Source: Haloplanus aerogenes
GTDB lineage: Archaea > Halobacteriota > Halobacteria > Halobacteriales > Haloferacaceae
Assembly: GCF_003856835.1 (NCBI RefSeq)
Contig: NZ_CP034145.1
Span: forward strand, 2,976,001-3,040,000
DNA: 64,000 bases
Direction: 5' to 3'
Positions 31,266 to 49,568 of this stretch are shown here, piece by piece; within the stretch, counting starts at the first letter, position 1; each line of letters starts with the position of its first letter. Under the pieces are notes generated by a model, which did not search any database, had not been told where the DNA came from, and saw only the letters and a list, made by a program, of their open reading frames with translations. Position numbers and translations under genes: made by a program.

Positions 31266-31274
31266 AGGAGGTGA
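31266..31274 (+). promoter_or_regulatory. Strong Shine-Dalgarno followed by an AUC codon
   Basis: AGGAGGTGA is nearly the full complement of the archaeal 16S rRNA 3' end. The base after the GGTGA core plus 7 nt is an AUC codon (31282) opening a good coding frame; no AUG, GUG or UUG is placed for that frame. Confidence 0.6.
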
Positions 31275-31281
31275 ACCACGA

Positions 31282-31407
31282 ATCGAACACGACGTTGGCA
31301 AAGTCTTCAACGCCGACAACGAGTTAATCGGCGGCACCGTCTTCCTCACTCCCGAGGAAGTCGAACGACTGGAGAGACAGGGCAAGCTCGAAATACAGAC
31401 CGACTGA
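31282..31407 (+). CDS. 41-aa small protein with AUC start codon
   Basis: The frame reads I-EHDVGKVFNADNELIGG, then TVFLTPEEVERLERQG and KLEIQTD. It is acidic, has natural haloarchaeal codon use and a beta-beta-alpha pattern like small accessory proteins. It shares the integrase reading frame and follows its stop with an intervening GAGGAGGTGA. The only in-frame codon at the correct distance is AUC. A GTG inside the Shine-Dalgarno opens a different, 18-codon frame that looks non-coding. Function is unknown; it is the third gene of the integrase operon. Confidence 0.6.
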   Translation: MEHDVGKVFNADNELIGGTVFLTPEEVERLERQGKLEIQTD

Positions 31408-31462
31408 ATTATATCACTTATTTAATATTTTCTTACTGTAGTTATACTATGGTGAGAACGAC

Positions 31463-31714
31463 GTGGCATCGCTGACAATCAAGCTTCCAGACAATCAGAA
31501 GTCCGAAATCGAAGCTATCGCTGGGGAGAAAAACTACAACAGCGTCTCGGAGTACGTACGGGAGGCCCTCCGCGACAAAGTAGAGGAAGATCTATTTCTC
31601 CGACCAGAAGTCGCTGAAAAGCTCCGAAAACGACTCAAGAAACACAGGGACGGAGACGTCGAAGTAGTCTCCCACGAGGAAGTCTTGGAAGAGCTGGGAC
31701 TGGATGAAGATTAA
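31463..31714 (+). CDS. Ribbon-helix-helix antitoxin (CopG/ParD-like)
   Basis: An 83-residue protein. The N-terminal SLTIKLPDNQKSEIEAIAGEKN and NSVSEYVREALRDKV form a CopG/ParD ribbon-helix-helix DNA-binding domain. The acidic C-terminal half (LRKRLKKHRDGDVEVVSHEEV) would wrap the toxin. The start is GTG, 7 nt after GGTGA (31451-31455). It overlaps the ParE-like toxin by 11 bases, the usual antitoxin-toxin arrangement, and probably represses its own promoter. AT-rich TATTTAATATT at 31418-31428 supplies a TATA-like sequence. Confidence 0.85.
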   Translation: MASLTIKLPDNQKSEIEAIAGEKNYNSVSEYVREALRDKVEEDLFLRPEVAEKLRKRLKKHRDGDVEVVSHEEVLEELGLDED

Positions 31715-31997
31715 CTGGCTGGAAGAAGCCCGAAACGACCTACAACGATTCGAGAAATCAGTACGAGACGAGATCGCGGTCCGAGTCGGGCAACTGGAAA
31801 ACAATCCGCTCGGCGAAAACACGTCGCTATTCAGTAAGCAGGGCATGGAGATTTTTCGATTGAAGCTAAAGGACGGCCAGTTAGATCACAGGGTATTCTT
31901 CGACTTGGATGGCGGTGAAGTCGTAATACTGGGAGTCGAACACCGAGATCAAGCGTACACACCCGAGTCCATCAAGAGAATCAAGTCCCGGCTCTGA
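31704..31997 (+). CDS. RelE/ParE-family toxin
   Basis: A 97-residue protein with the RelE/ParE fold order: KINWLEEARNDLQRFEKSVRDE, a helical hairpin, then LKDGQLDHRVFFDLDGGEVVILGVEHRDQAY. Members either cleave mRNA on the ribosome (RelE) or poison gyrase (ParE); the residues do not settle which. It is paired with the ribbon-helix-helix antitoxin immediately upstream and may stabilise the element. Confidence 0.85.
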   Translation: MKINWLEEARNDLQRFEKSVRDEIAVRVGQLENNPLGENTSLFSKQGMEIFRLKLKDGQLDHRVFFDLDGGEVVILGVEHRDQAYTPESIKRIKSRL

Positions 31998-32227
31998 ATC
32001 CTCCGAGACCAACATACAGTAGTAAGTCGTTAGTCTCTCAGTACTGTTTCAAACCCGTCTGTCTGGGCTGTCGGGTTCGTTTCTAACCTGTTTCGAGCCT
32101 GTCGTCGCGTCCCCGGTGTTTGGGTTCGGGGCTGTTTCCGGGCCGATTTTCAGACCTGTTTAACATATAGTCAATTGATTTATAAAAGTTAACTACAATA
32201 TGTAAAGTAGAGGGTGGCAGGAGCAGA
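31998..32227. other. Non-coding stretch with spaced CTGTTTC motifs and a promoter
   Basis: No gene was found in either strand. CTGTTTC occurs at 32044, 32088 and 32132, exactly 44 bp apart, and CTGTTT again at 32156. GGGTTCG also occurs twice. The segment ends with TTTATAAAA (32179-32187), the probable TATA box of the RadC gene. It might hold protein-binding sites or part of a transfer origin. Confidence 0.4.
32179..32187 (+). promoter_or_regulatory. TATA box of the radC-like gene
   Basis: TTTATAAAA lies about 45 bp before the GTG at 32228. Transcription would begin near 32210 and give a short leader holding GGCAGGAG (32217-32223 region) as Shine-Dalgarno. Confidence 0.5.
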
Positions 32228-32656
32228 GTGGAATACGAACTTGGAAGCATCCAGGTAACCGCAGAACTCCAAGACGAGGACAGCGAGGAGATTCAGAGCT
32301 TTTCCGATGTTACCAGCAAGTACGGGTTCCTCAGGGAGAGACCGAAGGAACACTTCTACGCGGTCTTCCTGAAGTCGGACAACGAGGTGATCGGTGACAA
32401 ACTGGTCAGCCTCGGAGGTGCCAGCTCCGCCTCCATCGACACGAAGGATGTAGCTCGGACCGCCGTCCTCACCAACGCCTCGGCCGTCATTCTCGTCCAC
32501 AACCATCCGAGCACTAACGACAGGCCGACCGACCAAGACTTGAAGGCCACCAAGGCGATTCAAGACGCCCTCGACCTCTTCGATGTCGAAGTCCTCGACC
32601 ACGTCATCATCTCACAGACCGGCAGCTACAGCATGAAGCAGAACGGCGACATCTGA
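32228..32656 (+). CDS. RadC/JAB-domain protein (JAMM motif)
   Basis: A 142-residue protein of the RadC/DUF2466 family. The metal-binding JAMM motif is intact: VHNHPSTNDRPTDQD with H91, H93 and D104. The rest of the fold (FYAVFLKSDNEVIGDKLVSLGGASSA, DVLDHVIISQTG) is present, without the N-terminal helix-hairpin-helix of bacterial RadC. Such short forms are common on plasmids and integrated elements. The GTG start is supported by the upstream purine-rich site. Its role on mobile DNA is unclear. Confidence 0.85.
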   Translation: MEYELGSIQVTAELQDEDSEEIQSFSDVTSKYGFLRERPKEHFYAVFLKSDNEVIGDKLVSLGGASSASIDTKDVARTAVLTNASAVILVHNHPSTNDRPTDQDLKATKAIQDALDLFDVEVLDHVIISQTGSYSMKQNGDI

Positions 32657-32686
32657 AATAAAAGAATCAACCCGGCGACTACTACC

Positions 32687-32917
32687 ATGGAAGCCGACAG
32701 AATCCTCAACGAATACGACCTCTCGAAAGAGACCGCTGCCCGATACATCGACGCAATCACTCGGATGAACCAATCGGAGACGGCCGAAGAAATCGGAGTC
32801 TCACGCCAGACCGTCAACCGATACAAGAACGTATTCGCAGAGATGACCGCGCAAGAACGCAGCCTACTAATCGCCTCTCTCGCGCAGGACCAATTCCTCG
32901 AACAAGCAACGGAATGA
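32687..32917 (+). CDS. Small helix-turn-helix protein
   Basis: A 76-residue protein. Residues about 25-50 read MNQSETAEEIGVSRQTVNRYKNVF, a clear helix-turn-helix (homeodomain-like/resolvase type). The flanking helices are LNEYDLSKETAARYIDAI and LLIASLAQDQFL. It is a likely transcriptional regulator of the element. It lies 30 bp downstream of the RadC-like gene on the same strand and may be co-transcribed. Confidence 0.75.
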   Translation: MEADRILNEYDLSKETAARYIDAITRMNQSETAEEIGVSRQTVNRYKNVFAEMTAQERSLLIASLAQDQFLEQATE

Positions 32918-33013
32918 TTTCACTCGTCTCTCTAAAAAATCGAATCTCTACGCCAATACTGCTGAAATATTTTTAACAGTTCCCGTACCACACAGTAGCA
33001 ACAAGGGTTCTGT

Positions 33014-34045
33014 ATGGATCGACGCCAGTACCTCGGCTTGACGGGAACGAGTATCGCGGCACTTCTCGGCGGTTGTTCGTCGTCAGGCAGTCAGAGCACT
33101 GCAACCGCTACGGATACGGCTACCGCCACCGCAACTGCGACGCCGACAGCCTCGCCAACTGCAACTGAGACAGCCACACCGACTGAGACGGCAACCGCTA
33201 CGCCTGCGTCGGATCCATATAATATCGACCGGTCGTACGTTGAGTTCATACGCGAAGAGTATCTGCCGAGCGGTGAGCAGGCCCGGAAGATCGCGGATAA
33301 TTTCGACACTGATGCTGTTGATCCTGGTTCTCCGCAGTTCGGTGAGCAGGTGTTGATGCAGATGAATGATGTTGTGAATACCGGGACTTCGTGGAGCCAG
33401 GCCTATGATACGGCTCGGGCCGCTCAGTACGCTGTAACCGAAATCCTGGGTGAATCGATCGATCCGGAGGACAGCAACTCCGTCCACGTCAGACCCGTCC
33501 CGCTCCTCCTGACAGGGAAAGATAAGCATGGAGTGGATTTCCACGACAGCCACGGCCGGACCACAATGGCCGCAGCATACGGAGAAACCACCGACGGAAA
33601 CATACTCAACCCAGAAGAAGACGGAATCGGCGGAAACGAAGGCATAATTGCTTCAACAGTAGAACACGAAAGGGGGATTAAAGATAGTACCTTTAGATGG
33701 AGCCACTTTGATGTTATCAATCAAAAGAAAAACAACAGATTCACCCCCGCGGGTGCGGATCGGTACCATACTCAGATTGGGAAACTTATTCCTGATCTGT
33801 ATCCTGCAGGTAAAATTCCTGCAACGCCTCAGGCTTGGATGACTGAATCCGGGGCGAAGCTCTTGGATGAGCGAGTTGTCGAGGATTATGATGGAATTGC
33901 TCCGTATGTGGAGATCGCTGAAGGATTCAGGGATGTTGAGGCAGGAAAGATTGGGAAGATATACGAAGAAGACGGTGAATTTGCCGTCGAACAGGTAGAT
34001 CAGGATGCATACAGGAACGACATTTTCTTCGCTCCCGAACTCTGA
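33014..34045 (+). CDS. Element-encoded lipoprotein with Thr/Ala/Pro stalk
   Basis: A 343-residue protein. MDRRQYLGLTGTSIAALLGGC is a twin-arginine-like signal with a lipobox (C21). Residues about 22-68 are a low-complexity TAT/TP-rich stalk encoded by degenerate GCNACN repeats. The C-terminal domain (YVEFIREEYLPSGEQARK to RNDIFFAPEL) has no family I recognise. It includes FHDSHGRTTMAAAY and a VEHERG segment that could bind metal, without a clear HExxH. Surface exposure is inferred. A second lipoprotein with a similar stalk is at 51503. Confidence 0.75.
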   Translation: MDRRQYLGLTGTSIAALLGGCSSSGSQSTATATDTATATATATPTASPTATETATPTETATATPASDPYNIDRSYVEFIREEYLPSGEQARKIADNFDTDAVDPGSPQFGEQVLMQMNDVVNTGTSWSQAYDTARAAQYAVTEILGESIDPEDSNSVHVRPVPLLLTGKDKHGVDFHDSHGRTTMAAAYGETTDGNILNPEEDGIGGNEGIIASTVEHERGIKDSTFRWSHFDVINQKKNNRFTPAGADRYHTQIGKLIPDLYPAGKIPATPQAWMTESGAKLLDERVVEDYDGIAPYVEIAEGFRDVEAGKIGKIYEEDGEFAVEQVDQDAYRNDIFFAPEL

Positions 34046-34429
34046 TTAAGGCCAATTAAAATTGAGCTTGAATACTTCCAGCGGATCCTTATTAGGGGTT
34101 GGGTTTCCTGCTATTCCGGTGGATCCTTCTGGGAAGTGTTGCCAGAGTTCTCCGTTGGGGTTTTGGGTGTTGTCGGCGCGTTTTTCCAGCCATTGTTGTT
34201 CGGTGGGGTCGGTGTTGATGCCGAGTTGCTGGTTGATTCCTGGTGTTCCAAGGCTTCTGTCGGCGTCGAGTTCCATGGTGGAGTTGGTGTCAACTATTTG
34301 GCCTGCTACTGAGCTTCCTTCGACGATGTATCCTGTATCGGAAGTTCCTGTGACTTCTGTGACTGATCCTCCGCTGTAGATCCATCGCCGGGTTCCCGGT
34401 GTAATGTCTCCTGTACTGCCGGATGGCAC
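34046..34429 (-). CDS. Hypothetical protein at the end of the transfer operon
   Basis: The frame reads from a GTG at 34429 (VPSGSTGDITPGTRRWIYSG) to NFNWP, 127 residues rich in Gly, Ser, Thr, Asn and Pro, like an extracellular or appendage protein without a signal. The same frame is open back to the stop codon of the winged-helix gene (DSGDNSCIYGFQQE precedes the GTG), so translation may begin earlier, for example at an AUC at 34450, or by readthrough of the TGA. It is the most distal gene of the minus-strand operon. I do not recognise it. Confidence 0.5.
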   Translation of the reverse strand: MPSGSTGDITPGTRRWIYSGGSVTEVTGTSDTGYIVEGSSVAGQIVDTNSTMELDADRSLGTPGINQQLGINTDPTEQQWLEKRADNTQNPNGELWQHFPEGSTGIAGNPTPNKDPLEVFKLNFNWP

Positions 34430-34471
34430 TTCTTGCTGGAAGCCGTAGATGCAGGAATTATCCCCTGAGTC

Positions 34472-34873
34472 TCAGTCCAATCTCCTCTGCACCTGCTTTT
34501 GGAACGTATTGAGTCGGGCTTCTAAGCTCTCAACCTGCTCCTCCACTTGATGCACCTTCTCCACGAGTTCTCGGTGAGTCAGGTTCTCGTACTGGTCTAG
34601 ATCTTCTTCATCCTGTTTTAGTCGCTCTTGTCCGTTCTCGGTTAGTTCGGCTTGTTTTGGTGCTTGGAAGACGCGTTTCTGGCCATCGATTACGCGTTCG
34701 ACCATTCCGTCGGGTTTCTCGACGTGGATGAGGCCCTGTTCTTCGAGTTTTTCGAAGGCGTAGGTGACGTGATGGTTTTCGAGGGTAGTGACTGCGGTGA
34801 TCTTCTGGACGTCGTCTTTCCCGTTGCCGATACAGGTGAGGACGACCCGGTCTTTCTCTCTGAGCGAGGTCAT
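34472..34873 (-). CDS. Winged-helix protein with C-terminal coiled coil
   Basis: A 133-residue protein. Residues 1-75 look like a MarR/PadR-like winged helix (REKDRVVLTCIGNGKDDVQKI, HHVTYAFEKLEEQGLIHV, DGQKRVFQAPKQAELTENG). Residues about 85-133 form a coiled coil (LVEKVHQVEEQVESLEARLNTF). The ATG at 34873 overlaps the VirD4-like stop codon. It probably regulates transfer genes or acts as a relaxosome-type accessory; both are inferred. Confidence 0.7.
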   Translation of the reverse strand: MTSLREKDRVVLTCIGNGKDDVQKITAVTTLENHHVTYAFEKLEEQGLIHVEKPDGMVERVIDGQKRVFQAPKQAELTENGQERLKQDEEDLDQYENLTHRELVEKVHQVEEQVESLEARLNTFQKQVQRRLD

Positions 34874-36777
34874 AATTCGAGGAGGACACATTTGGTTCCG
34901 AGTTCTGTGCAGAAATCGTCCTCATTACGGTAGAGGCAAGCCACCTCTAGATCCTCGCGAGTGCTGTACTCCAGCTCTGGACACTCCATCTCGGTTTTTT
35001 GGCGTTCCTGTAGCTCTTCCCCGGATAGTTCGAGGATTCGGTACTCGACCTGTTTCAACACCTCTACGTCGGTTACGGATTCGCCGTCGTCAGTGTAGTA
35101 GCTGTAGCTGCCGTTCTCGTCTTCGTATTCTGAGCCACGGCGGTTGACTGGATCGGAGACAATGTTCTCCAGCTTCGCTGCGTTGCCTTCCTCAACGACG
35201 AAGAGGACTTCTCGCTCTTCTTCGAGGCCGCGTCGCAGGTTTTTGAGTACTTTTGCTGGTTTGCTGAGTGTCTGGCATTCGGCTTCGAGGTGTGCGAGTT
35301 CTCCGTCTGGGAGGTGGACGTGCCCGTCCGGTTTCTCTTCTTCGTGGCCTTGGTGGAACAGGTGGGTTTGGAATCCGCGTTCTTCAAGCTGTTTCTCGGC
35401 CTGTGCGAGCAGCTCCTGGTGTTTTTTGCTTCCGGCGTTGGCCTGGTTTCCGAGTGATTGCTCTATTTGGAGTTCTGTTCGAGATGCTCGATCAGCGGAA
35501 CTTTGTCTCTTGATCTGTTCTACGTCGCTGTAGTCGGCGTTCCAAGGCGGGTAGGTGTCGAAAGTAATCGCGTTTTGCTGGGTTCGTTCTGCGGGTTTCT
35601 GGACTGCGGCCCGGTATTTGCCCATGGAGGTTAGCGTGTCTCTGTCGAGGCCGTGGAGCATTCCGGCAATTCGGTTGATGTCTTCGGTGCCGCTTGGGTC
35701 GAAGAAGACCTTGGTGCGGCAGTTGTTCGAGACGGCCCGGCGCATTTCGGTGGCGAGTTGGTGGAGGTACTGAGTGGCGAGCCAGCATCCAAGCCGGTAT
35801 TCGCGGGCCTCGGACAGCATCTTAGTGAAGTTGGAGCCTTCACCTCCGAAGTTCTGGAGTTCGTCGACGTAGAGATAGAACGGCGTTCTCTGGTCTTCCG
35901 GTTCTGCGATCCGGCTCTGTGCTGCGGCCCAGATCTTGGTGATGGCGATACTGCCGACGAGTTCTGAGGTCGTTTCCCCGATGTCGCTTTTCCGGATGTC
36001 GACCAACAGGATCTTGCCCTCGTCGACTACCTCCTTGAAGTCGACGCCTGAGTCTTCGGCTCCGATCACTCTCCGGATGGTTGCGTTCATCACGAAGTCG
36101 TTCAGGCGGCGCTGCAACGGCTCCAGATCATACGAAGACATGTCCTCTTTCACCCGGACGAGCTGCTCACGGATTACCGAGTCCTGTATCCTGTCAACCA
36201 GATCCGAGAGCTCGTCTTCGTTGATGACGCAACGAAAGACGTCGACCAATGTCTTCGATTCGTCGTGTTTGATGTTCTGGTCAAGGTGTGCGCGGAGCAG
36301 GGTTTCTAGGACGCGGCCGAACTGGTCGCCCCAGTTCTCGGATTGGCGTTTGAACAGGTCGATGAGGTCGGAGACGATGATCTCCTTCTGGTTCTCCCGC
36401 TGTGCAGTGTTCATGTCGTCGGTGATGTGGGGTTCGAGGACGTTGATCGGTGTCACTGGTTCCTGAGCCGGGTTGACGTAGACGACGTCTTCGACTCTGT
36501 CTTCTGGGAGTTTGGCGAGGAATTCGTCGATCATCTCGCCTTTCGGGTTGATGATGCAGAGGCCGCGGCCTTTCCTCGCGTCCTGTAGGGCGACGTGGAG
36601 CAGGAGTTGGGTCTTCCCGTGTCCGGTCGGGCCGACGTTGAGGACGTGTGTCCGCCGCTTGTCGTCGTCGAGGGTGACGTTCTCCTCGACGCCCATCATG
36701 GATTTGCGGCTGCCGAGGTAGGTGATGGACTGATTCCCAGTACTCTCGATCAGGTTCTGAGCTTCTTCGGGAGTCAT
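34870..36777 (-). CDS. VirD4/TraG-like type IV coupling ATPase
   Basis: A 635-residue ATPase. Walker A is NVGPTGHGKTQLLLH near residue 48. GLCIINPKGEMIDEFL follows, as in TraG/TraD proteins, and Walker B is FYLYVDELQNFGGEGSNF. A TraM/TraD-recognition-like stretch (LGCWLATQYLHQLATEMRRAVSNNCRTKVFF) comes next. The last 180 residues include an acidic tail and a Cys-rich end (CPELEYSTREDLEVACLYRNEDDFC, read in parts). There are no N-terminal membrane helices, unlike bacterial VirD4. It would couple substrate DNA to the transfer channel. It overlaps both neighbours by 4 bases. Confidence 0.85.
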   Translation of the reverse strand: MTPEEAQNLIESTGNQSITYLGSRKSMMGVEENVTLDDDKRRTHVLNVGPTGHGKTQLLLHVALQDARKGRGLCIINPKGEMIDEFLAKLPEDRVEDVVYVNPAQEPVTPINVLEPHITDDMNTAQRENQKEIIVSDLIDLFKRQSENWGDQFGRVLETLLRAHLDQNIKHDESKTLVDVFRCVINEDELSDLVDRIQDSVIREQLVRVKEDMSSYDLEPLQRRLNDFVMNATIRRVIGAEDSGVDFKEVVDEGKILLVDIRKSDIGETTSELVGSIAITKIWAAAQSRIAEPEDQRTPFYLYVDELQNFGGEGSNFTKMLSEAREYRLGCWLATQYLHQLATEMRRAVSNNCRTKVFFDPSGTEDINRIAGMLHGLDRDTLTSMGKYRAAVQKPAERTQQNAITFDTYPPWNADYSDVEQIKRQSSADRASRTELQIEQSLGNQANAGSKKHQELLAQAEKQLEERGFQTHLFHQGHEEEKPDGHVHLPDGELAHLEAECQTLSKPAKVLKNLRRGLEEEREVLFVVEEGNAAKLENIVSDPVNRRGSEYEDENGSYSYYTDDGESVTDVEVLKQVEYRILELSGEELQERQKTEMECPELEYSTREDLEVACLYRNEDDFCTELGTKCVLLEL

Positions 36778-37760
36778 GGCTGTGCGGTTCGGATGTTCTG
36801 CTGGTTGCGGTCGGGAATCGAGACGAGTGCAGCGAGTTCGGAGGTGGAGGCCTGGAAACTGAGACTCCAGTCGTCGAACTCTCTTCTCCGGACAGCATCG
36901 GCGAACTCGAGGAAACGGGATTCGCGTAGTGATCGGACGGTACTGGTGTTGAGGTACTGTCCGGTCGTGGCGTCTTCGAAGTGATTGAACGCCCCAGCGA
37001 GTTCCTTCACCCGGCTGGGTGTGTGTTCTCCGGCTCCGATGACGAGGAACCGTATCGACACATCGAACCGTGGACTACCGGCCTTATCCTCAATCGCGTC
37101 TGCTTGCTGCCTCTCTCGCGGGGTTGCCGGGCGATCATGCCAAGGGAAGATATCAGGCTTCTCCTTACGGAGGTAACCCAGTTGCTTGTAGGCCCGTCGG
37201 ATCCACAGTCTGTTTCGAACCGGTTCTCCGATCTTGGGCTGGAACAGGATTTGAACGACGAACTTCGTGTCCCACATTGCGTGCCGATGTAAGGCCGCGG
37301 TCAGGGCGTTGATCGGCGGGATATCGTACTCGGTACGTAACGGGTAGCAGTCTCTTCTTCCGACAGTGAGCAGGCCCCCACCGATGGTGTCGTCTTTCAG
37401 AACCGGCAGTCCATCTACTCCAGTCTCGAATCCGAGTCCAGGGATCTGCTCGCTCAGATTGGTTCTCAGTTTGCGTTCCAGCCGCTTCGACGGTACCGTG
37501 TACTGGTAGGTGAGTTCGCCGCTCTGGCTTCTGCGTATTTCGTATGCGATAACCGGTGAGGCGTTGGACAGTCCGAGCCACTTGGTCTGGTACTCGGTGA
37601 TCCCCCTGACGAACTGGTTTAGCGTGGAAGGGATGTCGCCGTTTCGTGGCGGTTTTACCTCGACGGTGTACTGGCTTCCCGCTCCGTGATGCAGCTGCTC
37701 GGCTTCGTCTTCTGAGAGCGTGGTGTGGTTGTGGAGTAGTCGGTTTTTGAGGTCTATCAT
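36774..37760 (-). CDS. Unknown protein of the transfer operon
   Basis: A 328-residue soluble protein, MIDLKNRLLHNHTTLSEDEA at the start. It has beta-rich segments (QYTVEVKPPRNGDIPSTLNQFVRGI, VIAYEIRRSQSGELTYQYTVP) and a conserved-looking FDVSIRFLVIGAGEHTP. The pattern resembles the N-terminal, non-ATPase region found fused to archaeal HerA/TraG-type transfer ATPases. It lies between the VirB4-like and VirD4-like genes, overlapping the latter by 4 bases, so a shared complex is likely. No catalytic motif was found. Confidence 0.6.
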   Translation of the reverse strand: MIDLKNRLLHNHTTLSEDEAEQLHHGAGSQYTVEVKPPRNGDIPSTLNQFVRGITEYQTKWLGLSNASPVIAYEIRRSQSGELTYQYTVPSKRLERKLRTNLSEQIPGLGFETGVDGLPVLKDDTIGGGLLTVGRRDCYPLRTEYDIPPINALTAALHRHAMWDTKFVVQILFQPKIGEPVRNRLWIRRAYKQLGYLRKEKPDIFPWHDRPATPRERQQADAIEDKAGSPRFDVSIRFLVIGAGEHTPSRVKELAGAFNHFEDATTGQYLNTSTVRSLRESRFLEFADAVRRREFDDWSLSFQASTSELAALVSIPDRNQQNIRTAQP

Positions 37761-37766
37761 CGGGGG

Positions 37767-40364
37767 TCACTCCTGTAGCTGGATGTAGCGCTCTGAGAGT
37801 GCGGGGCAGGCGGTCAGCAGGGTTCTCGCTCGGTCGATGGATCCGTCAAGGATGACGACGCCGAAGATGAAGCGGCCTCTTGCGGTCCAAGCATCGAACC
37901 GGACGGGTTCTCCGACTCCGAACAGTTCGTCGACGGCGTACTGGACGTGGTCGGGTTGCCACCGACTTATGTGGATCAGGTACCGGTCGTTTTTCGGTCC
38001 GAGGTACGTACCGAGAACCCAGTCTTCTGCGACCGGAACTGCCCAGCGATCCGTCGTGGTTCCCAGTTTTTTCCAGCCCGGCAGCACTTCCGGGAGCAGT
38101 TCTTCAGCCGAGGCCTCTCTGTCTGGATCCTCCGCCTCGGTGATGCACGTATCCGGCAGTTCGAGCAATCCGTCCTCGGAGCCGCGGACTTCTCGGTTTC
38201 TGGCTTGGGACTGAGTGTTCAGGTTTCCGGTGTCTGCGTCGGGGTTTTTGATTTCTGTTCCACCATCTGACTTGACAGGGTTGTCTGGGTCGTTGGTCTG
38301 TTTTCCACGAGCTTCGGTGGCGGTGTTTTCGGGCATGGATATGAGGTTCTCTTCGAATTCTCTGGTGATGAGGTCGTGTTCGCTCTGCGTGGACTCGATT
38401 CGGAGCTTGGTGCTGACGGGACCGCGGATGATAGCCTCACTGAAGGGCAGGTCAGTACCGGTCCGTAGCCTCCGAAGTTCTACGGCCTGCTTCGGTGATA
38501 GGTTGAAGAAGTCGGAGACACCGGTCTCGACGTCTTGGTGTTTCATGAAGAGGTAGCAGTCGACGTTTCGAAGGATGTTCTGGCCTGCTTGACTGCGGGT
38601 GAAATCCGAGGCGTTCTGTGTGATCATCTCGACCGAGACGTTCCGGTCGCGGCCCTCTCTGACCAGTCCGTCTAACGCTTTTCTCCCGTTTGGGTCGAAG
38701 AGGAGGCGGTGAGCCTCGTCGATCAGGACGATGGTCTTCCGCCGGTCTTCCGATGCCTTCCTGTAGATGTGGCGGACAGCTTCGGACAGAAGATCGGTGT
38801 TGTCCTGGCTGCGGTCAGCGACCGTGTACCGCGTCACCGAGCCCGTCTCCAGGTCGGAAAGCGTGGCAGAATCGAGTACAACGGTCTCTCCATCGATTGC
38901 CTCGGTCAGGCTACCGTACTCCTGTTTTGGGTCGATGATGTAGACTTGGAGGTCGCTGTAGGTCTGCCAGGAGCGGAGGAGTGACAGGATCGCGAAGTAG
39001 GTCTTACCGGATCCGGTCTTGCCCATGCGGGCGATGTGGCCGGCTTCCCAGGTGAACCGGTTTAGGACGACTGGCATCGAGTTCCGCGTGTCGATACCGA
39101 ACGAGATGCCGCCTTCCTCGATCTTGTCGTGGGTGGAGAACGCGAAGCTAGCTGCGACTGACCGTGAGGGCATTATCATTCCACGGTCCAGTCCGTCGGG
39201 GCGCGTGATGGAGTCCGTCCGTATGCTTCGCGGGGTTTCCAGCCACGGTTCTTCGTGTTTAATGTTGAATCGGCGTAGCAGCCGCTTTACTTCTTCAGTG
39301 GTTTCGTCGACTTCTTCCCATGACTCGCCGCGGATGACGATGTATGCGGCGGCGTTCACGAGGCGTTCGTCACCCGATCCCTCGATGTCGATCAGATCCT
39401 GTGCGTCGGCTAGCTTCCGGTCGATTTCGGAGCTTCGCAAAGGGTTCGGTGTGGCGACAGTCTCGGCACGCATTCGGCCGACCAGGCGGCCCAGCTTCTT
39501 CCGTTGCTTATCCGACGCAGGTTCCACGTTCTGGACGACGTCGATGAATCCCGGCGCGTCCATGTTCAGTATGTCCGAGAGGACGCCTGGCCCGCGTTTT
39601 TCAGGGTAGCCGGAGATGCAGAGGATGCGCCGGTGGCTGTCTTCTCCGATGGTGTACCGGGTGTTGGTTAGTGAGGGTTCGGAGATTTCCAGCCTGTTGA
39701 GGGTTTGTTCCAGCGGGGTTCTGGTGATGTGGTTTGCTGAGAGGTCACCGGCGTTCAGGCTGTTTCGGATCATCCGACACCGCTCGACCGTGTCCTCGAT
39801 ACGGGCCTCGACTGACCGGGATTCGGATTCTTTCCAAGGTAGTATCGACGGTGAGTCTGGGGAATCTCTGATGACGACGTAGTGATCGGTGGTGACGGCT
39901 TGGTTCTTGACGCACCTACAGTCGGAGAGGTCGACCCGGCGTTTCCGGGAGTGGATCTCTACGGGATCTTCGATCTCACGGTGAAGGTTGGCAAGGGTGT
40001 CGCGGTTTACCTGCCAGTCTCGCTCCGACGCCATGTCGAGGTCTACGGAGTCGATCTCAACCAGTCCGATCACAACTCCGTTGTCGGTGACGGCGACCTG
40101 GTCTCGGACTTCGTACTCGCATTCCAGCTGCTGTTTCTCAGTGTGGAAGCGGAGCAAGTCGACCAGTACTTTGTCGAGAGTTTTACCGTGGATCTGGAGT
40201 TCGGCGAAGCCGATACCGACAACCGATCCTACAACGGCACCCGGGAGTCCGGCCAGGATCAAGCCGATAAATACTGGGAGAATAATTCTGACGAGGTCTC
40301 CGACGGTGTATCGCCAGAACTTGACTTTGAACTCCGTGATGGGAGCGGGGTACTGTACCTTCAT
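37767..40364 (-). CDS. VirB4/TraC-like conjugation ATPase with N-terminal membrane segment
   Basis: An 865-residue ATPase. Residues about 20-55 hold two hydrophobic helices (LVRIILPVFIGLILAGLPGAVVGSVVGIGFA), resembling a VirB3/PrgI-like domain fused to VirB4. The motor domain has Walker A ARMGKTGSGKTYFAIL near residue 440, IIDPKQEYGSL, and Walker B TIVLIDEAHRLLFDP. The QNASDFTRSQAGQNILRN segment is typical of VirB4/HerA. The last 170 residues are an extra domain after an Asp/Asn-rich linker. It powers assembly of the transfer apparatus. It overlaps the VirB6-like gene by 4 bases. Confidence 0.88.
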   Translation of the reverse strand: MKVQYPAPITEFKVKFWRYTVGDLVRIILPVFIGLILAGLPGAVVGSVVGIGFAELQIHGKTLDKVLVDLLRFHTEKQQLECEYEVRDQVAVTDNGVVIGLVEIDSVDLDMASERDWQVNRDTLANLHREIEDPVEIHSRKRRVDLSDCRCVKNQAVTTDHYVVIRDSPDSPSILPWKESESRSVEARIEDTVERCRMIRNSLNAGDLSANHITRTPLEQTLNRLEISEPSLTNTRYTIGEDSHRRILCISGYPEKRGPGVLSDILNMDAPGFIDVVQNVEPASDKQRKKLGRLVGRMRAETVATPNPLRSSEIDRKLADAQDLIDIEGSGDERLVNAAAYIVIRGESWEEVDETTEEVKRLLRRFNIKHEEPWLETPRSIRTDSITRPDGLDRGMIMPSRSVAASFAFSTHDKIEEGGISFGIDTRNSMPVVLNRFTWEAGHIARMGKTGSGKTYFAILSLLRSWQTYSDLQVYIIDPKQEYGSLTEAIDGETVVLDSATLSDLETGSVTRYTVADRSQDNTDLLSEAVRHIYRKASEDRRKTIVLIDEAHRLLFDPNGRKALDGLVREGRDRNVSVEMITQNASDFTRSQAGQNILRNVDCYLFMKHQDVETGVSDFFNLSPKQAVELRRLRTGTDLPFSEAIIRGPVSTKLRIESTQSEHDLITREFEENLISMPENTATEARGKQTNDPDNPVKSDGGTEIKNPDADTGNLNTQSQARNREVRGSEDGLLELPDTCITEAEDPDREASAEELLPEVLPGWKKLGTTTDRWAVPVAEDWVLGTYLGPKNDRYLIHISRWQPDHVQYAVDELFGVGEPVRFDAWTARGRFIFGVVILDGSIDRARTLLTACPALSERYIQLQE

Positions 40365-41605
40365 TTGTCACCACGCCCCCGGAGTTCGGTCTCTTTCGTC
40401 CAGTCGCCGTTCTGGTCTTGGTGCCAGTTCTCCTCGACGTCGACCTTCGTTTCGTCCTGCCTGATACGGTCCTTCACCTTTCTCTTGGCCCGATGCAGCC
40501 TTCCACCGGTCTGGTGCATCTCGACCTCGTTGTTGGACCGGTGCTGGAGCCGGACCTGGTCAGGTTTCTTCTCTGCGAACCGGTTTCTGGCTTGGTTGAT
40601 CCGTTGAGTTCCTTTTTCCCTGAAATTCTGGTACTGCTCTCGGACCTTGGGTTTCACCCGGTCGCCGGCCTTTCCAGCTGCGTTTCGACTGAATAGGAGG
40701 GCCGGAAGCACTAGCGAGGAGCTGGATGAAAGTATCTGGAACGGGAGGGCCAGCATGACGAAGTATCCTCCGAGACCCCAGATGTACTGTGGCAGCGCGT
40801 TCTGGCCCTGCATATCCAGCAACGCCAGTACCAACTGATAGGCGATCAGGTCCATCGGCCCGATCAGCAGGAAGCCGATGAACAGGCCAGTCAGCGGTGA
40901 GGCGAACTTGCGCGTCGGCTGGAAGTAGGTAAGCAGGAAGATCAAGGGGGAGGCAGCGACGTAGAACAACAGGTAGAACGATTGAACGATGAAGAGAATC
41001 ACGAGGGCGAGCAGGACTGCCGCTTGAATCCAGATCACAACAGCAGTTGTGAGAGTGACGGATAGGCCGCTCATCGTCGAAACCGGTCCCGGCCGGAGTG
41101 CAGCTGCCGCCAGACGCGAGAGTTCGACAGGGTAGTAGAGTAGCCACGGCGAGACTCCGCCAGCGGCTACAACGGCGAGGAGTTCAACCGTAGGCCGGAT
41201 GCCATCTGCTCTGCCGGTGATGTGCTGGAAGCCGATCCAGATGAGGACGGGGACGGCAAGCAGTAGCGTGAGCTGGAAGACGGTGTGGTGGACATCCAAC
41301 ACGTCCTGATGTTTCACATCCGGGTATGATACCATGACGTAGGAGAGGGTTTCAGAGATAGTCTGGACTAAAGCGTGGAACGGTTCGACCAGTAGCGTCA
41401 GCCCTGCCTCAACGATGATGTCGCCCAGGTCGTCACCGAGTTGCTCGACTTCGTCGACCAAGTCTTCAATGGCATCAGTGAGGGCGCTGAGGTCGATCAC
41501 AGGGCCTTCGTCTTCCTCGTCTTCCTCCTGAGCAGCCGCTGGAGTGGCGGCAGCCAGAGCCAGGAACATGGTAACTCCGAGGATGAAGAGGGTGCGCCGG
41601 TTCAT
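40361..41605 (-). CDS. VirB6/TrbL-like polytopic membrane protein
   Basis: A 414-residue protein. A cleavable signal (RRTLFILGVTMFLALAAATPAAAQ) precedes an acidic patch EEDEEDEG. About six transmembrane helices follow, including VFQLTLLLAVPVLIWIGF, VIWIQAAVLLALVILFIVQSFYLLFYVAASPL and FIGFLLIGPMDLIAYQLVLAL. The last 110 residues are basic and cytosolic. The topology matches the channel component of type IV secretion systems. It lies 2 bp after the pilin gene and before the VirB4-like gene. Confidence 0.75.
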   Translation of the reverse strand: MNRRTLFILGVTMFLALAAATPAAAQEEDEEDEGPVIDLSALTDAIEDLVDEVEQLGDDLGDIIVEAGLTLLVEPFHALVQTISETLSYVMVSYPDVKHQDVLDVHHTVFQLTLLLAVPVLIWIGFQHITGRADGIRPTVELLAVVAAGGVSPWLLYYPVELSRLAAAALRPGPVSTMSGLSVTLTTAVVIWIQAAVLLALVILFIVQSFYLLFYVAASPLIFLLTYFQPTRKFASPLTGLFIGFLLIGPMDLIAYQLVLALLDMQGQNALPQYIWGLGGYFVMLALPFQILSSSSSLVLPALLFSRNAAGKAGDRVKPKVREQYQNFREKGTQRINQARNRFAEKKPDQVRLQHRSNNEVEMHQTGGRLHRAKRKVKDRIRQDETKVDVEENWHQDQNGDWTKETELRGRGDK

Positions 41606-41607
41606 CT

Positions 41608-42018
41608 CTACGCACCCCCGCAGAGGACTCCCTTCACGAATTCTACAAGCCCTCCAGCCATCAGGACGATTATCAGACCGACGAACGTGTTGAAGATGAT
41701 TCGCCGGGCCTTCTGCTGGCTGTCCGGGGTGCCGCGCATCCAGAGGATGCCCCCGTAGATCAGCATGATCGTCGCGATCAGGAGTGCGAGAGCGATCCCC
41801 AGCTGCTGGACCCGAGTGAGCAGTTCGACAATCTCTTGGAACTGAGAGGGCATGTCGCCACAGGAAGCACTGGTCTGGGCCGCGGCACGCCGAGGGATTG
41901 AAACGAGGGCAGTGGTGAGGGAACTAATTGCAGCGAGTTGGCTTCGGCTGGGGGATAGCTTAGTGAGGGAGTGACGTAACCACGTTTTGTATGCCCCGGA
42001 CAGCGGTAGGCGGGACAT
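41608..42018 (-). CDS. VirB2/TrbC-like pilin
   Basis: A 136-residue protein from the ATG at 42018, or 167 residues from 42111. A basic N-terminus and signal region (SSLTTALVSIPRRAAAQ) precede a likely cleavage before TSASC. The mature part has two transmembrane helices (LGIALALLIATIMLIYGGILW and IIFNTFVGLIIVLMAGGLVEF) joined by a short polar loop, the hallmark of VirB2/TrbC pilins. It is the first gene of the minus-strand transfer operon. The start is uncertain; both ATGs lie downstream of an AT-rich promoter stretch near 42221-42240. Confidence 0.72.
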   Translation of the reverse strand: MSRLPLSGAYKTWLRHSLTKLSPSRSQLAAISSLTTALVSIPRRAAAQTSASCGDMPSQFQEIVELLTRVQQLGIALALLIATIMLIYGGILWMRGTPDSQQKARRIIFNTFVGLIIVLMAGGLVEFVKGVLCGGA

Positions 42019-42220
42019 GATGGATGGGGATACGGGCAGATTAGCGGTGGTTATGATTGATGCGGTTGCGGAGGCGAGCGTCGCCACTCGCCGGCGGATG
42101 TTTTCGTACATATCTCTGTTTCTGGGCTTTCAGCCTGTTTTCAGGCTGTATCGCGTGGTGTTGTGGCCGGGCTTCTTACCGGCCAAGTTGGTCCAAGGCT
42201 GGAATCGAGGTAAGTACTAT

Positions 42221-42240
42221 CAAATTTATTATAATATATT
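42221..42240 (-). promoter_or_regulatory. AT-rich promoter region of the transfer operon
   Basis: The minus strand reads AATATATTATAATAAATTTG. This is the only TATA-like sequence upstream of the pilin gene and probably drives pilin-VirB6-VirB4-VirD4. A leader of at least 80 nt follows, depending on the start codon. Confidence 0.4.
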
Positions 42241-42293
42241 CAGATCTACTGTGAGAAGGAGTTTTAGCACGAGGAATCTGTTTTACGTGTAGA

Positions 42294-42746
42294 ATGAGCA
42301 CGGAGTGGGAGGAAATCGCATCTCGGACGATTAGGGATAACAGGAAAGTCCGGACACCAGATTGGTTTGTTGAGTTATTCGCCGTGGACGGAATGGATGA
42401 CTCCGTTTTCTGGAACTATGAGAAGAACTCGAAATACATCGTTCTCTCTGATCGACCTCTCTCAAAAAGCCAGTATCAGCCCGTAACACGAACTTTGATC
42501 TACAACGAGGGAGGTTACCGGAAGATCCGCCCGCCGGGCGATTTCTCTGAGGTTCTTCTTTCCAAATTCTTTGAGGGGAACGAGTTGTTCTACCTGCTTC
42601 ACCGAGACATGAGAGGCGAAGATAACCCTACATCAGTGTATTTACTGACCCGGAGAGAGGTCCTTGATCTCTTGCCGAATGGGAACCCAGATTCAGATCT
42701 GAAGAGCAAGATCCTGAGTACTCCGGGCCTCCTTCCCTCAATATAG
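42294..42746 (+). CDS. Hypothetical protein upstream of the membrane M48 peptidase
   Basis: A 150-residue soluble protein, MSTEWEEIASRTIRDNRKVR at the start, with many aromatic residues (FVELFAVDGMDDSVFWNYE, LFYLLHRDMRGEDNPTSVYLL). No signal, membrane helix or known motif was found. GTTTTACG lies close upstream and could act as a leaderless promoter. It precedes the M48 peptidase by 20 bp on the same strand and is probably co-transcribed. Confidence 0.65.
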   Translation: MSTEWEEIASRTIRDNRKVRTPDWFVELFAVDGMDDSVFWNYEKNSKYIVLSDRPLSKSQYQPVTRTLIYNEGGYRKIRPPGDFSEVLLSKFFEGNELFYLLHRDMRGEDNPTSVYLLTRREVLDLLPNGNPDSDLKSKILSTPGLLPSI

Positions 42747-42766
42747 GCCGCCTCTAAATCCAAGTC

Positions 42767-44488
42767 ATGCGAATTCTCCGAGTGGAATGGTCGATAGAGT
42801 CCTCTTTTGATTCGGTCAAGAAGCATCTGGAGGATCAGATGGGTGATCCGGATTTTGGCGACGAAAGGATCTATAGATGGAAGCCCACTTCGAGGTTCGA
42901 AAGCCGTGTGATAGAGCTTGATCGATCAGAGGGCATGATTTGTATGGAAAATACAGCCCCTGATTTCCTGAAATACGCTCTGCATCTGCTGATTGCAGCT
43001 CTTGTTTTGGGGGTCGTCGGCCAGAAACAGTTAGTGATAGATGCTGGGACCGGTGCTTCACTTCTCCTCTTTTTCGGATTCAGGCATCTCGTTGACGTGC
43101 CTCGGCACGAAGACTACGTGATAACCTCGATAGCTATTTCCAAGTACTATTTTGCCAGCATCCTTCTGGCAGGGATCTTTGCCGTATTCTCCAGTTTTAG
43201 CACGTCTGGAACGCTTCAGATAGTGTATATCGTGGGAGGCTTGCTGATTCTGGGAGAGCATTTTGCCCAAGGTTCGCTGCCTATTGATTCGGATTATATT
43301 CCGGACCCTGGCAGCAGTCAATCCTTCCTCCATGTACCTGTACTCGGGCTTGCAGCTCCGCTCGGGTCGTATGCCCTGATTAATCTCTTCAATTTGCTTC
43401 GGACCTCTGCGCTCCCGTATTGGAGTGTCGTATCACTTACTGCGGTTTTTGCTGTGCTTGGGACTCGGGGATATGGTATGGCGTGTAGAGACGCTCTCGA
43501 CAGAGTTCGACTGGATCGGAATGCTTTCTTTCCGTCGAAACCGATTCGTGCCGTTGCGGCACTCCTGTATATTTGCGTTAACGTCCTCTCTCTGGCGATG
43601 CTTGTTTTCTGGGTCGATCTCCTCGCTCTTGGAATATCTGGAGGTGGCCTGATTCAGGACTTCACACCGAGAGGTATCGAACTGTTCACTCAAATCTATG
43701 CAAATCTTGATGCCGTCTTCCAACCTTTGCCCCTGCTATCTCCCCGGAGCTATTCCCTCCTGTTTGCCTCGCTGATTTTCCTTCCAACACTCCTGCTGGT
43801 AGGGACTTGGCTTGCGTTTCTTGTTCTGAATATGCACCTCAAGATGAATCTGATCGTGAAGGGCAGGCCAGAGAGTTTCAGCGAAATAGACGGTTCCAAT
43901 ATATCGGTTATTTCGGTCGATGTTGGCCGCCCCATCATCAAACCGCTTAGCCTGTTTTTCGGACTGAAGAAGTGTATTGTCGTGGATAAGTCGGTTCTTG
44001 ATTTTCTTGATGAAGACAGGGATGAGACTCAGGCAGTCTTGGCACACGAGGTCTACCATCTCCGCAACAGAGAAGTCCTAGTGAATATTCTCTCGTCGAT
44101 CTTTTCGCTAGTTGTTTTCGGGGGCAAAAATGCGCTGCTCGCGTTCTACGATTACCCCCGTATTGAGGAAGAGGCCGATAGATACGCGGCTGAGATGTTC
44201 GGAGCTGAGTCCTTGCAGAGCGCCTTGAGGAAGATCGAATACTTACAGGTACAAGCTACCGGCGACTCAAGAATTGAGCAGATACTTGGAATGCCTGGGT
44301 TCACCGGTTCACGAACCAGAGCAGATGAAGAAAACGCGGACGATCCGCAGGAAGAGGCCCCGCTCCTTCAGCGGGTACTGACTGACTTTTCGGCCCCTTA
44401 CAACCTATTTTATGGAACCGTGTTATTTGACCAGGCCCACAGGTCTGTTGATGAGCGTATCCAGAGACTTGCCGATATGACCAGCTAG
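42767..44488 (+). CDS. Membrane-bound M48-type zinc metallopeptidase
   Basis: A 573-residue protein with about eight hydrophobic segments. The zinc motif HEVYH lies near residue 426 (AVLAHEVYHLRNREVLVN), and the third ligand is probably in PRIEEEADRYAAEMFG, as in HtpX/Ste24 families. The first 60 residues are a soluble cap (MRILRVEWSIESSFDSVKKH). M48 proteases cut membrane or prenylated proteins. On a mobile element it could process transfer or surface components, which is speculative. Codon use is AT-rich relative to the chromosome. Confidence 0.85.
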   Translation: MRILRVEWSIESSFDSVKKHLEDQMGDPDFGDERIYRWKPTSRFESRVIELDRSEGMICMENTAPDFLKYALHLLIAALVLGVVGQKQLVIDAGTGASLLLFFGFRHLVDVPRHEDYVITSIAISKYYFASILLAGIFAVFSSFSTSGTLQIVYIVGGLLILGEHFAQGSLPIDSDYIPDPGSSQSFLHVPVLGLAAPLGSYALINLFNLLRTSALPYWSVVSLTAVFAVLGTRGYGMACRDALDRVRLDRNAFFPSKPIRAVAALLYICVNVLSLAMLVFWVDLLALGISGGGLIQDFTPRGIELFTQIYANLDAVFQPLPLLSPRSYSLLFASLIFLPTLLLVGTWLAFLVLNMHLKMNLIVKGRPESFSEIDGSNISVISVDVGRPIIKPLSLFFGLKKCIVVDKSVLDFLDEDRDETQAVLAHEVYHLRNREVLVNILSSIFSLVVFGGKNALLAFYDYPRIEEEADRYAAEMFGAESLQSALRKIEYLQVQATGDSRIEQILGMPGFTGSRTRADEENADDPQEEAPLLQRVLTDFSAPYNLFYGTVLFDQAHRSVDERIQRLADMTS

Positions 44489-44557
44489 TCTGAGGATTCA
44501 TCCGAAACACACCCTCTCATCACCTACTACCCTGTTCTCCCCGCCTTAGTTCTACAG

Positions 44558-44562
44558 GGTGA
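44558..44562 (+). promoter_or_regulatory. GGTGA Shine-Dalgarno core 6 nt before an AUC codon
   Basis: GGTGA is followed by 6 nt and then AUC at 44569, which opens the DUF932 frame. The in-frame codon overlapping the Shine-Dalgarno is a stop, so the gene must start after it. Confidence 0.55.
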
Positions 44563-44568
44563 TACTCT

Positions 44569-45558
44569 ATCCAAGGTGAACAGTACGCTTTCGACGATTT
44601 AGACGAGCTTTACGAAACCGCTGAAGAGCTTCCCGAGGTCGACAGACACGACGTCTACGCCCATCACACCGGAGAGGATGAGTGGGAGGAGGTGCCGTAC
44701 CGCGACAGTCTCTGGACGGACGATGGAAGGGCGACCGGCGTGGTCTCTGCCTCCCAAGACTTCTACAACATCATCCAGTACGGCGATGTCCTGGAGACTA
44801 TCGGTGACGCCGTCGACCGCCACGAAGACATTACGCCGAGAGGCAGGGTCTCGATCTCTCCGACAGCCCACAAGATGTCGGCTTCCATCGACTTCGACGG
44901 GGCAACGATCTACGCCAACGAGGACGATCCCATCGACCTCGGGTTGCAGGTGCAGAGCGGGCACTCTGGTTTCCACGGTCTGAAGTACGATGTGGGAGCG
45001 GAGCGCCAGGTGTGCAGTAACGGGATGACGGCATTCATTTCCGACCTAAGCTTCGACCAGACCCATAGCGATCCGTTCCAGCCCGGTCTTGCGTACAACG
45101 CTGTCGACGCCGTCATCCAGAGCCCGGCCGAGATAGAGCAACGACTGGCCCAAGCCCAGAACCGCGAACTAATGAACCAGGACGAGGCCCTGCTTGTCTT
45201 GATGGACTCGGGTATCGGACGTTACCTCGAACAGCCTGTCCCCGACCTGCTCAACGCTCTGTACGACGAGGTAGATGATCCGGAGGCTCCGACACTCTGG
45301 GAGACGTACAACGCGGCCACACGCGCACTCACGCACTACACTCAGGTCCCCGACTACGAGTTAGCCGATGGGTTTGAACAGGCGGCCCAGCTTCTGGAGA
45401 CAGGCGGTAACGAGATTCCTGAACCAGAACGATTGGGGCAGCAAGCGGTTGAGAGACGGACCCGTGAACTTGTCGAGCGAGGTGATGCCGAGCCGCTGTG
45501 GGAGGGCGAGACCGAAACCCTGCGAGAGCTCCAGGAATTCCACGACGTGGAGGCATGA
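44569..45558 (+). CDS. DUF932 plasmid/phage-like protein with AUC start codon
   Basis: A 329-residue protein. The frame begins I-QGEQYAFDDLDELYETA right after a TGA and a GGTGA site, with no AUG/GUG/UUG until GTG 44692. The DUF932 core (WEEVPYRDSLWTDDGRATGVVS, FYNIIQYGDVLETI) straddles that internal GTG, so starting there would cut the domain. Later blocks are SGHSGFHGLKYDVGAERQVCSNGM and LDSGIGRYLEQP-like. DUF932 proteins are common on plasmids and phages; some relate to recombination or antirestriction, and function is unproven. Confidence 0.75.
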   Translation: MQGEQYAFDDLDELYETAEELPEVDRHDVYAHHTGEDEWEEVPYRDSLWTDDGRATGVVSASQDFYNIIQYGDVLETIGDAVDRHEDITPRGRVSISPTAHKMSASIDFDGATIYANEDDPIDLGLQVQSGHSGFHGLKYDVGAERQVCSNGMTAFISDLSFDQTHSDPFQPGLAYNAVDAVIQSPAEIEQRLAQAQNRELMNQDEALLVLMDSGIGRYLEQPVPDLLNALYDEVDDPEAPTLWETYNAATRALTHYTQVPDYELADGFEQAAQLLETGGNEIPEPERLGQQAVERRTRELVERGDAEPLWEGETETLRELQEFHDVEA

Positions 45559-45604
45559 AACAGATGCTGATCCCACGAAGCCAAAATCCAGAACGCTGGG
45601 TAGC

Positions 45605-45612
45605 GGTGAGGT
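45605..45612 (+). promoter_or_regulatory. Shine-Dalgarno GGTGAGGT before an AUU codon
   Basis: The GGTGA core (45605-45609) is followed by 6 nt and AUU at 45616. An in-frame TGA lies within the site, so no earlier start is possible. Confidence 0.55.
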
Positions 45613-45615
45613 ACA

Positions 45616-45924
45616 ATTACTGATTTTGACGAAGAGGAGCCGATAGCGCGGTGGGAAGCAGCTTTTCTTCCGGACTGGGAGTGGGAGGCCTACGACAAGG
45701 ACGACGGTCTCTACTTCGGCCGCGTCCGCTCCCCGAACACGTACGGTGAGTGGGAGTACGGCTACTTCTCCCAAGAACAATTGACGGAAGCCGGGGCCTA
45801 CCGAACCGACCTATATCCGGAGGACGAAGCACCGCTATTTCCGGACGGCGGAGAAATCGAAGATATCGTCGCAGTCTACGAAACGGAGTTAGCGGCCATG
45901 CTGGAAGAAGGTGATGACGTATAG
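45616..45924 (+). CDS. Acidic 102-aa protein with AUU start codon
   Basis: The frame reads I-TDFDEEEPIARWEAAFLP, then DWEWEAYDKDDGLYFGRV, SPNTYGEWEYGYFSQEQL and so on to EEGDDV. It is strongly acidic and rich in Trp and Tyr, with consistent third-position bias, so coding is convincing. The only AUG is 11 codons before the stop. An in-frame TGA precedes the AUU by three codons. Function is unknown. It lies 57 bp after the DUF932 gene and overlaps the following gene by 4 bases. Confidence 0.7.
   Translation: MTDFDEEEPIARWEAAFLPDWEWEAYDKDDGLYFGRVRSPNTYGEWEYGYFSQEQLTEAGAYRTDLYPEDEAPLFPDGGEIEDIVAVYETELAAMLEEGDDV
45910..45915 (+). promoter_or_regulatory. Shine-Dalgarno GGTGAT before an AUA codon
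   Basis: The GGTGA core ends at 45914, and 6 nt later AUA (45921) opens the next gene. The AUA overlaps the stop codon TAG of the preceding gene, mimicking the common ATGA overlap. Confidence 0.55.
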
Positions 45925-46361
45925 ACTCAGTCGATGAGATCCTGGAAGAGTATGTCGACGAGCGACACCAGTTCCAAAGGAAGCCGTACTGGCTCTTCCT
46001 TGACGCCCAAGACGAGCTGAAGTGGGAGACGTTCGCGTACTTCCCCGAGGCCCACTACAACCGGGAGATAAGCAAACGAATCAGAAAAGAATGGGAGCAG
46101 GAGATTCTGCCTGACGGCGGTTCGAGGACGCAGTACTACTGGAGTGGCGAAAAGGGAATTGTCTACCACACTGACGCCGGTGACGAAATGGTAGACCCGT
46201 TCTTCGGCTCCATCGAAGAAGCAGAACGCTATCTCGAGGATCTAGCCGATAGACACGGCAAGGAGCAGTACATCGGATTAGTCCTGAGAAAATCCGGGAA
46301 CAGAAAGGTCGAGGAAGCTACCGAGGTACTGACTGAGCAGAGCGGGATAGCGGACTGGTGA
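45921..46361 (+). CDS. 146-aa protein with AUA start codon
   Basis: The frame reads I-DSVDEILEEYVDERHQFQ, then RKPYWLFLDAQDELKWET, FAYFPEAHYNREISKRIR, GEKGIVYHTDAGDEMVD and ends SGIADW. It is soluble, mixed alpha/beta and acidic. The first in-frame AUG is well inside (near residue 92), so an internal start would lose most of the protein. The start codon AUA shares bases with the upstream stop TAG, as expected for coupled genes. No family is recognised. It completes a three-gene set with the DUF932 gene. Confidence 0.7.
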   Translation: MDSVDEILEEYVDERHQFQRKPYWLFLDAQDELKWETFAYFPEAHYNREISKRIRKEWEQEILPDGGSRTQYYWSGEKGIVYHTDAGDEMVDPFFGSIEEAERYLEDLADRHGKEQYIGLVLRKSGNRKVEEATEVLTEQSGIADW

Positions 46362-49174: not shown

Positions 49175-49325
49175 GTGTTTCGGGTAGTTCGGCGTATCGG
49201 AATATAATATCTCTAAACAAGAAATCGGCGAACAAATCTTTCTATTCAAATCTTCCAAGCTTTGGTTCAGATGTGAGTTGAGAGTCACCCCGTCCTATTT
49301 AAAACTCAGACACCAATTTTCGCTT
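49175..49325. other. Promoter-containing spacer before the structured RNA
   Basis: No coding frame was found. TATTTAAAA at 49296-49304 is a strong TATA box; transcription would start near 49326, about 12 nt before the basal stem of the RNA described below. Confidence 0.5.
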
Positions 49326-49550: not shown

Positions 49551-49568
49551 GAGGTGTAGAACTACTCT

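Follow-up and report, generated by a model that had tools for sequence, protein, structure and literature searches.

Putative AUH start codons behind strong Shine-Dalgarno sequences as a conserved trait of a family of haloarchaeal conjugation-type elements

Background

Start codons outside NTG (ATG, GTG or TTG) are treated as rare accidents and are largely ignored by gene callers. The infC gene of Escherichia coli, which encodes the fidelity factor IF3, carries a conserved near-cognate AUU codon after a Shine-Dalgarno (SD) sequence, and its translation is low and fidelity-sensitive. In this work we have analyzed a stretch of 64,000 nucleotides (nt) of Haloplanus aerogenes (contig NZ_CP034145.1, positions 2,976,001 to 3,040,000, referred to as the window) harboring an integrated conjugation-type element, four genes of which appear to start with AUC, AUC, AUU and AUA (AUH in RNA, ATH in DNA). 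They resemble infC in having near-cognate codons, AUU among them, conserved after an SD. However, infC is a single gene for a fidelity factor, whereas here many unrelated genes of an archaeal element are concerned and AUC and AUA are used as well. Among the element products scanned no match to an initiation factor was found, as autoregulation of the infC type would involve.

Two archaeal systems are also comparable. The tubulin AtubA of Asgard archaea (Kariarchaeaceae) has an inferred ATT start with an upstream ribosome-binding site, the deposited protein being too short (PMC13394414). It shares with the present genes an archaeal ATT start and a ribosome-binding site deduced from sequence, but it is one gene in one genome and not part of a conserved multi-gene set. 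In haloarchaea termination-reinitiation has been described at overlapping genes which have an SD within the upstream gene and NTG starts (PMC6728339, PMC10666635). One of the genes analyzed here, encoding 146 amino acids (aa), likewise has its SD in the upstream gene and a short overlap (ATAG as the analogue of ATGA); the difference lies in the NTG starts of the described pairs and in the DUF932 gene of the element, which lies free of overlap behind a strong SD. In the open-access literature (subscription papers being outside the scope of the search) no conserved multi-gene AUH set was found for haloarchaea. Single near-cognate starts are known; systematic near-cognate initiation by a mobile-element family appears to be new.

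Predicted starts and coding evidence

All four genes lie on the forward strand. The 41-aa gene (31282..31407) opens with ATC at 31282, is preceded by the SD GGAGGTGA (31267..31274) and runs for 41 codons to a stop at 31405-31407. The DUF932 gene (44569..45558; 329 codons; Pfam DUF932, E=2.3e-7) also begins with ATC, and its SD GGGTGAT (44557..44563) belongs to a GGTGA/GGTGG motif that is kept in the homologues. The 102-aa gene (45616..45924) begins with ATT behind the SD core GGTGA (45605..45609), and the 146-aa gene (45921..46361) with ATA behind the SD AAGGTGAT (45908..45915), which lies within the 3′ end of the 102-aa gene; the ATA and the TAG stop of the upstream gene share the sequence ATAG, a 4-nt overlap of the two genes. 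A profile search found no clear Pfam family for the 41-, 102- and 146-aa products, the 41-aa product having a sub-threshold match to DUF7443 only. AlphaFold models of the 102- and 146-aa proteins were of low confidence (mean pLDDT 58 and 46, respectively), gave no clue to function and were not used.

A first-pass annotation of the window had proposed these starts because each AUH codon follows a GGTGA core at the distance used by a GTG-started antitoxin gene of the same element. The sequence agrees: the cores at 31270, 44558, 45605 and 45910 are spaced 7, 6, 6 and 6 nt from the AUH codons, and the spacing is 6 for the antitoxin gene at 31463. It is also correct that the frames have no usable NTG near the N-terminus. 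The first in-frame ATG, GTG or TTG is found at codon 41 of the DUF932 gene, 55 of the 102-aa gene and 89 of the 146-aa gene, and nowhere in the frame of the 41-aa gene. In-frame stops were claimed upstream of all four starts and are indeed present (8, 3, 3 and 2 codons upstream of 31282, 44569, 45616 and 45921, respectively), but they count for less than had been claimed, since a spacing of 6 automatically places the TGA of GGTGA in frame and such a stop is not independent evidence.

Substitutions were counted in the codons before the first NTG, between the window and relatives more than 60% identical to it. Differences at codon positions 1, 2 and 3 numbered 108, 87 and 276 in the DUF932 gene, 101, 86 and 348 in the 102-aa gene, and 216, 169 and 345 in the 146-aa gene; codons 2-40 of the DUF932 gene are under purifying selection. 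The third-position bias ahead of the first NTG indicates that translation begins upstream of every NTG. The AUH codons are not ordinary isoleucine codons of a longer frame either, because ATT is preferred at the starts (15 of 23, against 31 of the 172 internal isoleucine codons; p=6e-6) and ATC internally; ATA, too, is commoner at starts than inside the genes.

Start codons in homologues

In the tallies a start could lie as many as four codons away from the aligned position, and of several candidates the one with the best SD was chosen, so that SD-led starts are favored in both the AUH and the NTG class. Among the first 14 element copies of the DUF932 gene the aligned or neighboring codon is ATC or ATT in ten and ATG in four, and the non-redundant total is 20 AUH of 24. 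Four loci found after the rule had been formed served as a prospective check, and all four have ATT or ATC after GGTGAT. Overall ATT or ATC occurs in 24 of 28 relatives and ATG in the remaining 4; at 93% identity the closest relative carries ATT in place of the ATC of the window. In Haloferax gibbonsii ATCC 33959 and Haloarcula vallismortis ATCC 29715 the DUF932 gene likewise has ATC. A genome-wide scan added loci from Halobellus, Halonotius, Halorubrum, Halobaculum, Haloarcula, Halosimplex, Halovenus, Haloferax, Natrinema and Halorussus.

The 102-aa family has ATT or ATC in 13 and ATG or GTG in 8 of 21 members, at or beside the aligned codon; the aligned first codon itself is ATT after GGTGA in most relatives and ATG in others. 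In the 146-aa family every clear case has ATA, ATC or ATT and none has NTG. The 41-aa family, located behind the integrase, shows ATC, ATT, TTG, CTG, ATG or ACG at or next to the aligned codon. Across the families GGTGA or GGTGG lies 6-7 nt upstream, as expected of a ribosome-binding site at normal spacing; where a motif search with alternative SD variants counted overlapping variants twice, only its single-motif rows were used. Mapped on the DUF932 tree, switches between AUH and NTG number at least 2 for DUF932, 6 for the 102-aa family and 0 for the 146-aa family. Homologues with ATG at the position of the AUH codons had been suggested as a check of these starts, and ATG was found exactly there in relatives such as G389, G055, G102, G254, G330 and others. 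The homologues thus strongly support the AUH codons as true starts and, because the codons are conserved across many genera, they look real and selected and not like a reading error.

To define the extent of the trait 38 sequences were scanned that contain either the element or a relative of the 41-aa gene, and a family was counted if it had SD plus ATH in at least three copies. Eight families were obtained, with 15 such copies for DUF932, 15 for the 146-aa family, 9 for the 102-aa family and 4 for a family named after the motif DEFGRTLEEQ. The remaining four are a 500-aa family, with ATA in each of its three copies, a 107-aa family related to the 146-aa protein (ATT, found in the four elements whose DUF932 gene has ATG), the family of the 41-aa gene, and DUF6610. 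Searching 392 genomes with a pattern was of no help, the pattern being too specific.

The 500-aa genes (L091:4246, L089:6524 and position 20619 of the G260 stretch) adjoin AUH genes, and their products weakly resemble "ATP-binding proteins" of plasmids and contain a metallopeptidase-like HEIGHH motif. DUF6610 genes on plasmids mostly start with ATG and encode an N-terminal extension, which shows that AUH does not characterize DUF6610 everywhere. A DUF6610 copy lacking annotation on a plasmid of Natronosalvus was considered as a gene missed through its AUH start and was dropped, its frame having only 89 codons. On plasmid pHSR2-01 of Halanaeroarchaeum sulfurireducens (L125:3028) the public record gives ATC as the start of a DUF6610 gene, probably as a fallback for a missing NTG.

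Comparison with the host

As a control we used 836 kb of host DNA outside the element, about a quarter of the genome, taken as stretches. A loose scan for GGTGA was too noisy and was replaced by a strict filter, i.e. an SD 6-mer, 5-8 nt and ATH opening a coding frame with no upstream NTG. It was passed twice in the host sample, which predicts about 0.06 passes in the 23.6-kb element; three of the four window genes pass it (P about 3e-5) and the fourth, at 45616, has GGTGA with weaker flanks. Strong SDs of the host precede NTG in 14 cases and ATH in 2, about 2 being expected by chance as estimated from other codons, while in the element stretches of the relatives they precede NTG in 5 cases and ATH in 17 (chance 0.8). 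The contrast gives p=2e-4 by the Fisher test with rows that are not independent.

Since strong-SD genes of the host use NTG and AUH occurs there at chance level only, the host is not generally relaxed in initiation. It possesses aIF1 and two copies of aIF1A, and elements from about ten other named genera show the same AUH starts; a relaxed initiation system in this host, as had been suggested, is therefore not supported. Despite the relatedness of the rows and the small host set, the trend clearly assigns the AUH starts to the element. One host frame of 162 codons (L018:12850, G000:C1 about 1912850) has ATA 6 nt after AGGTGA and its first NTG at codon 13; it is either an isolated AUH start or a product of chance.

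Proposed mechanism

SD pairing in the 102-aa family is stronger in AUH members than in ATG/GTG members (-10.0 versus -6.2 kcal/mol, p=0.0003) and DUF932 shows the same trend (p=0.065). These stabilities, together with the switches on the tree, fit SD-compensated near-cognate initiation. The start assignment appears established from the comparison of sequences, by AUH where relatives have AUG, a conserved strong SD, purifying selection and occurrence in at least eight families. We consider it probable that the four AUH codons are genuine starts at which a strong SD enables near-cognate initiation by the initiator methionyl-tRNA (Met-tRNAi), with attenuated expression of the element genes. The ordinary Met-tRNAi would pair with AU and be mismatched at the third base, and the SD-anti-SD duplex would hold the small subunit long enough for initiation despite proofreading by aIF1. 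In Sulfolobus aIF1 favors discrimination against non-canonical starts (cited in PMC6237735). The outcome would be attenuated, SD-dependent and probably fidelity-sensitive expression, applied by the element to an accessory gene set while AUG is retained in its integrase and conjugation genes. Reinitiation may also serve the 146-aa gene, which overlaps its upstream neighbor. Deliberately low or fidelity-sensitive translation, proposed in the first-pass annotation, is plausible and would fit the stronger SDs of the AUH members.

Several points weigh against this explanation. Its support comes from sequence comparison, from which the attenuating role is deduced; start assignment had a slack of up to four codons with the best SD picked; the p-values take no account of the relatedness of the homologous rows and are therefore too favorable; and the host control comprises just 14 strong-SD NTG genes from about a quarter of the genome. 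The E. coli efficiency of ATT, about 0.3% of ATG (Hecht 2017, cited in PMC10666635), is low, although it is not a haloarchaeal figure. For DUF932 there is the further objection that SD motifs of Haloferax volcanii, and of haloarchaea more generally, are described as non-functional in de novo initiation (PMC6728339), a description which the leader of the DUF932 gene directly challenges.

A bolder version can be held only tentatively, with its chances a little on the lower side: strong SD plus AUH may form a separate initiation class, placing a defined gene set under fidelity- and SD-dependent control insulated from leaderless initiation, unlike the AUG genes of the element and the host. If so, the SD would prove functional for de novo initiation in haloarchaea. 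More generally, if non-NTG starts are a conserved multi-gene trait of this family of mobile elements throughout the haloarchaea, entire sets of genes in haloarchaeal elements probably have wrongly assigned starts. The elements would then offer a natural system for studying how start-codon fidelity is controlled by archaeal aIF1/aIF1A and the SD.

Alternative explanations

The strongest competitor of SD-compensated initiation is tolerated drift, in which any AUN behind a strong SD is about equal in haloarchaea and the third base changes with no selection for low expression behind it. The 102-aa family has exchanged AUU and AUG/GUG six times or more on the tree, the third base of the DUF932 start varies too (nine codon changes) and the 41-aa family mixes ATC, ATT, TTG, CTG, ATG and ACG. 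We nevertheless regard drift as unlikely, as the strong-SD genes of the host do not drift (14 NTG, ATH at chance), clear cases of the 146-aa family never have NTG, ATT and ATA are enriched at starts relative to the ATC-dominated internal isoleucine codons, and AUH members have the stronger SDs.

Somewhat less likely still is termination-reinitiation alone, by which an SD near an upstream stop hands ribosomes over to the AUH codon. Most elements have an overlap of 4-16 nt between the 146-aa start and the 102-aa stop, and in related elements (L076-L085) a stop, TGA, falls within the SD of the 41-aa gene. However, DUF932 is the AUH gene with the best conservation, and in nearly all elements no coding stop was detected within 80 nt of it; the 102-aa start in the window is 57 nt away from the preceding stop.

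A trans-acting factor of the element, whether an unknown protein or a modified initiator tRNA, might license AUH, so that expression of the genes would require the presence or activity of the element. The AUH starts go with the element rather than with the host, and several element proteins are without known function. This explanation is very improbable given that no element protein matched an initiation factor, the window has no tRNA gene, and the few tRNAs in the related stretches are elongator-type or belong to a cluster that looks chromosomal.

A wrong start, i.e. an internal NTG or the GTG inside GGTGA followed by a frameshift, is hardly credible: GGTGA always includes GTG and a standard open reading frame call takes an internal GTG (44692 in DUF932), but the GTG frame soon runs into stops, conserved residues and third-base bias precede every NTG, the 41-aa gene and the first 88 post-start codons of the 146-aa gene are without NTG, and the frameshift is excluded because the spacing alternates between 6 and 7 within one family, which would need different frameshifts. 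A-to-I editing was dismissed on logical grounds, as it could make AUA G-like but not AUC or AUU.

Genetic context of the AUH genes

The integrated element is seen at 30334-50807 of the window and is apparently of the conjugation type as judged by its VirB4-, VirD4/TraG- and TrbC/VirB2-like genes. It has a tyrosine integrase gene (30334..31260, forward; Pfam Phage_integrase, E=3.1e-22), adjoined by a ParD/ParE-like toxin-antitoxin pair (31463-31997) whose ParD-like antitoxin, recognized from sequence and a profile match, has its GTG start after GGTGA (31463..31714, forward). A conjugation-type module follows on the reverse strand (34870..42111; VirD4/TraG-like at 34870, VirB4-like at 37767 and TrbC/VirB2 pilin-like at 41608), then the AUH genes and, on the forward strand, a HerA/FtsK-like ATPase (47204) and a second tyrosine recombinase (49569; together 47204..50807). 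The integrase, the conjugation genes, the ATPase and the second recombinase have ATG starts, for the integrase and conjugation genes mostly without a good SD.

An integrase together with VirB4/VirD4-type ATPases is present, as in integrative and conjugative elements, which the element further resembles in its TrbC/VirB2-like gene; it differs in that no relaxase was recognized among the element proteins scanned. No relatives of DUF932 were found in the plasmid collection, nor any relatives in the viral contigs searched. Much of the gene set recurs in related genomes and the element is apparently widespread in haloarchaea. Directly 3′ of the AUH genes lies a gene for a PIN-domain protein (46415-46831, reverse strand; Pfam PIN_3, E=7.5e-17), which was also seen in one of the related stretches compared.
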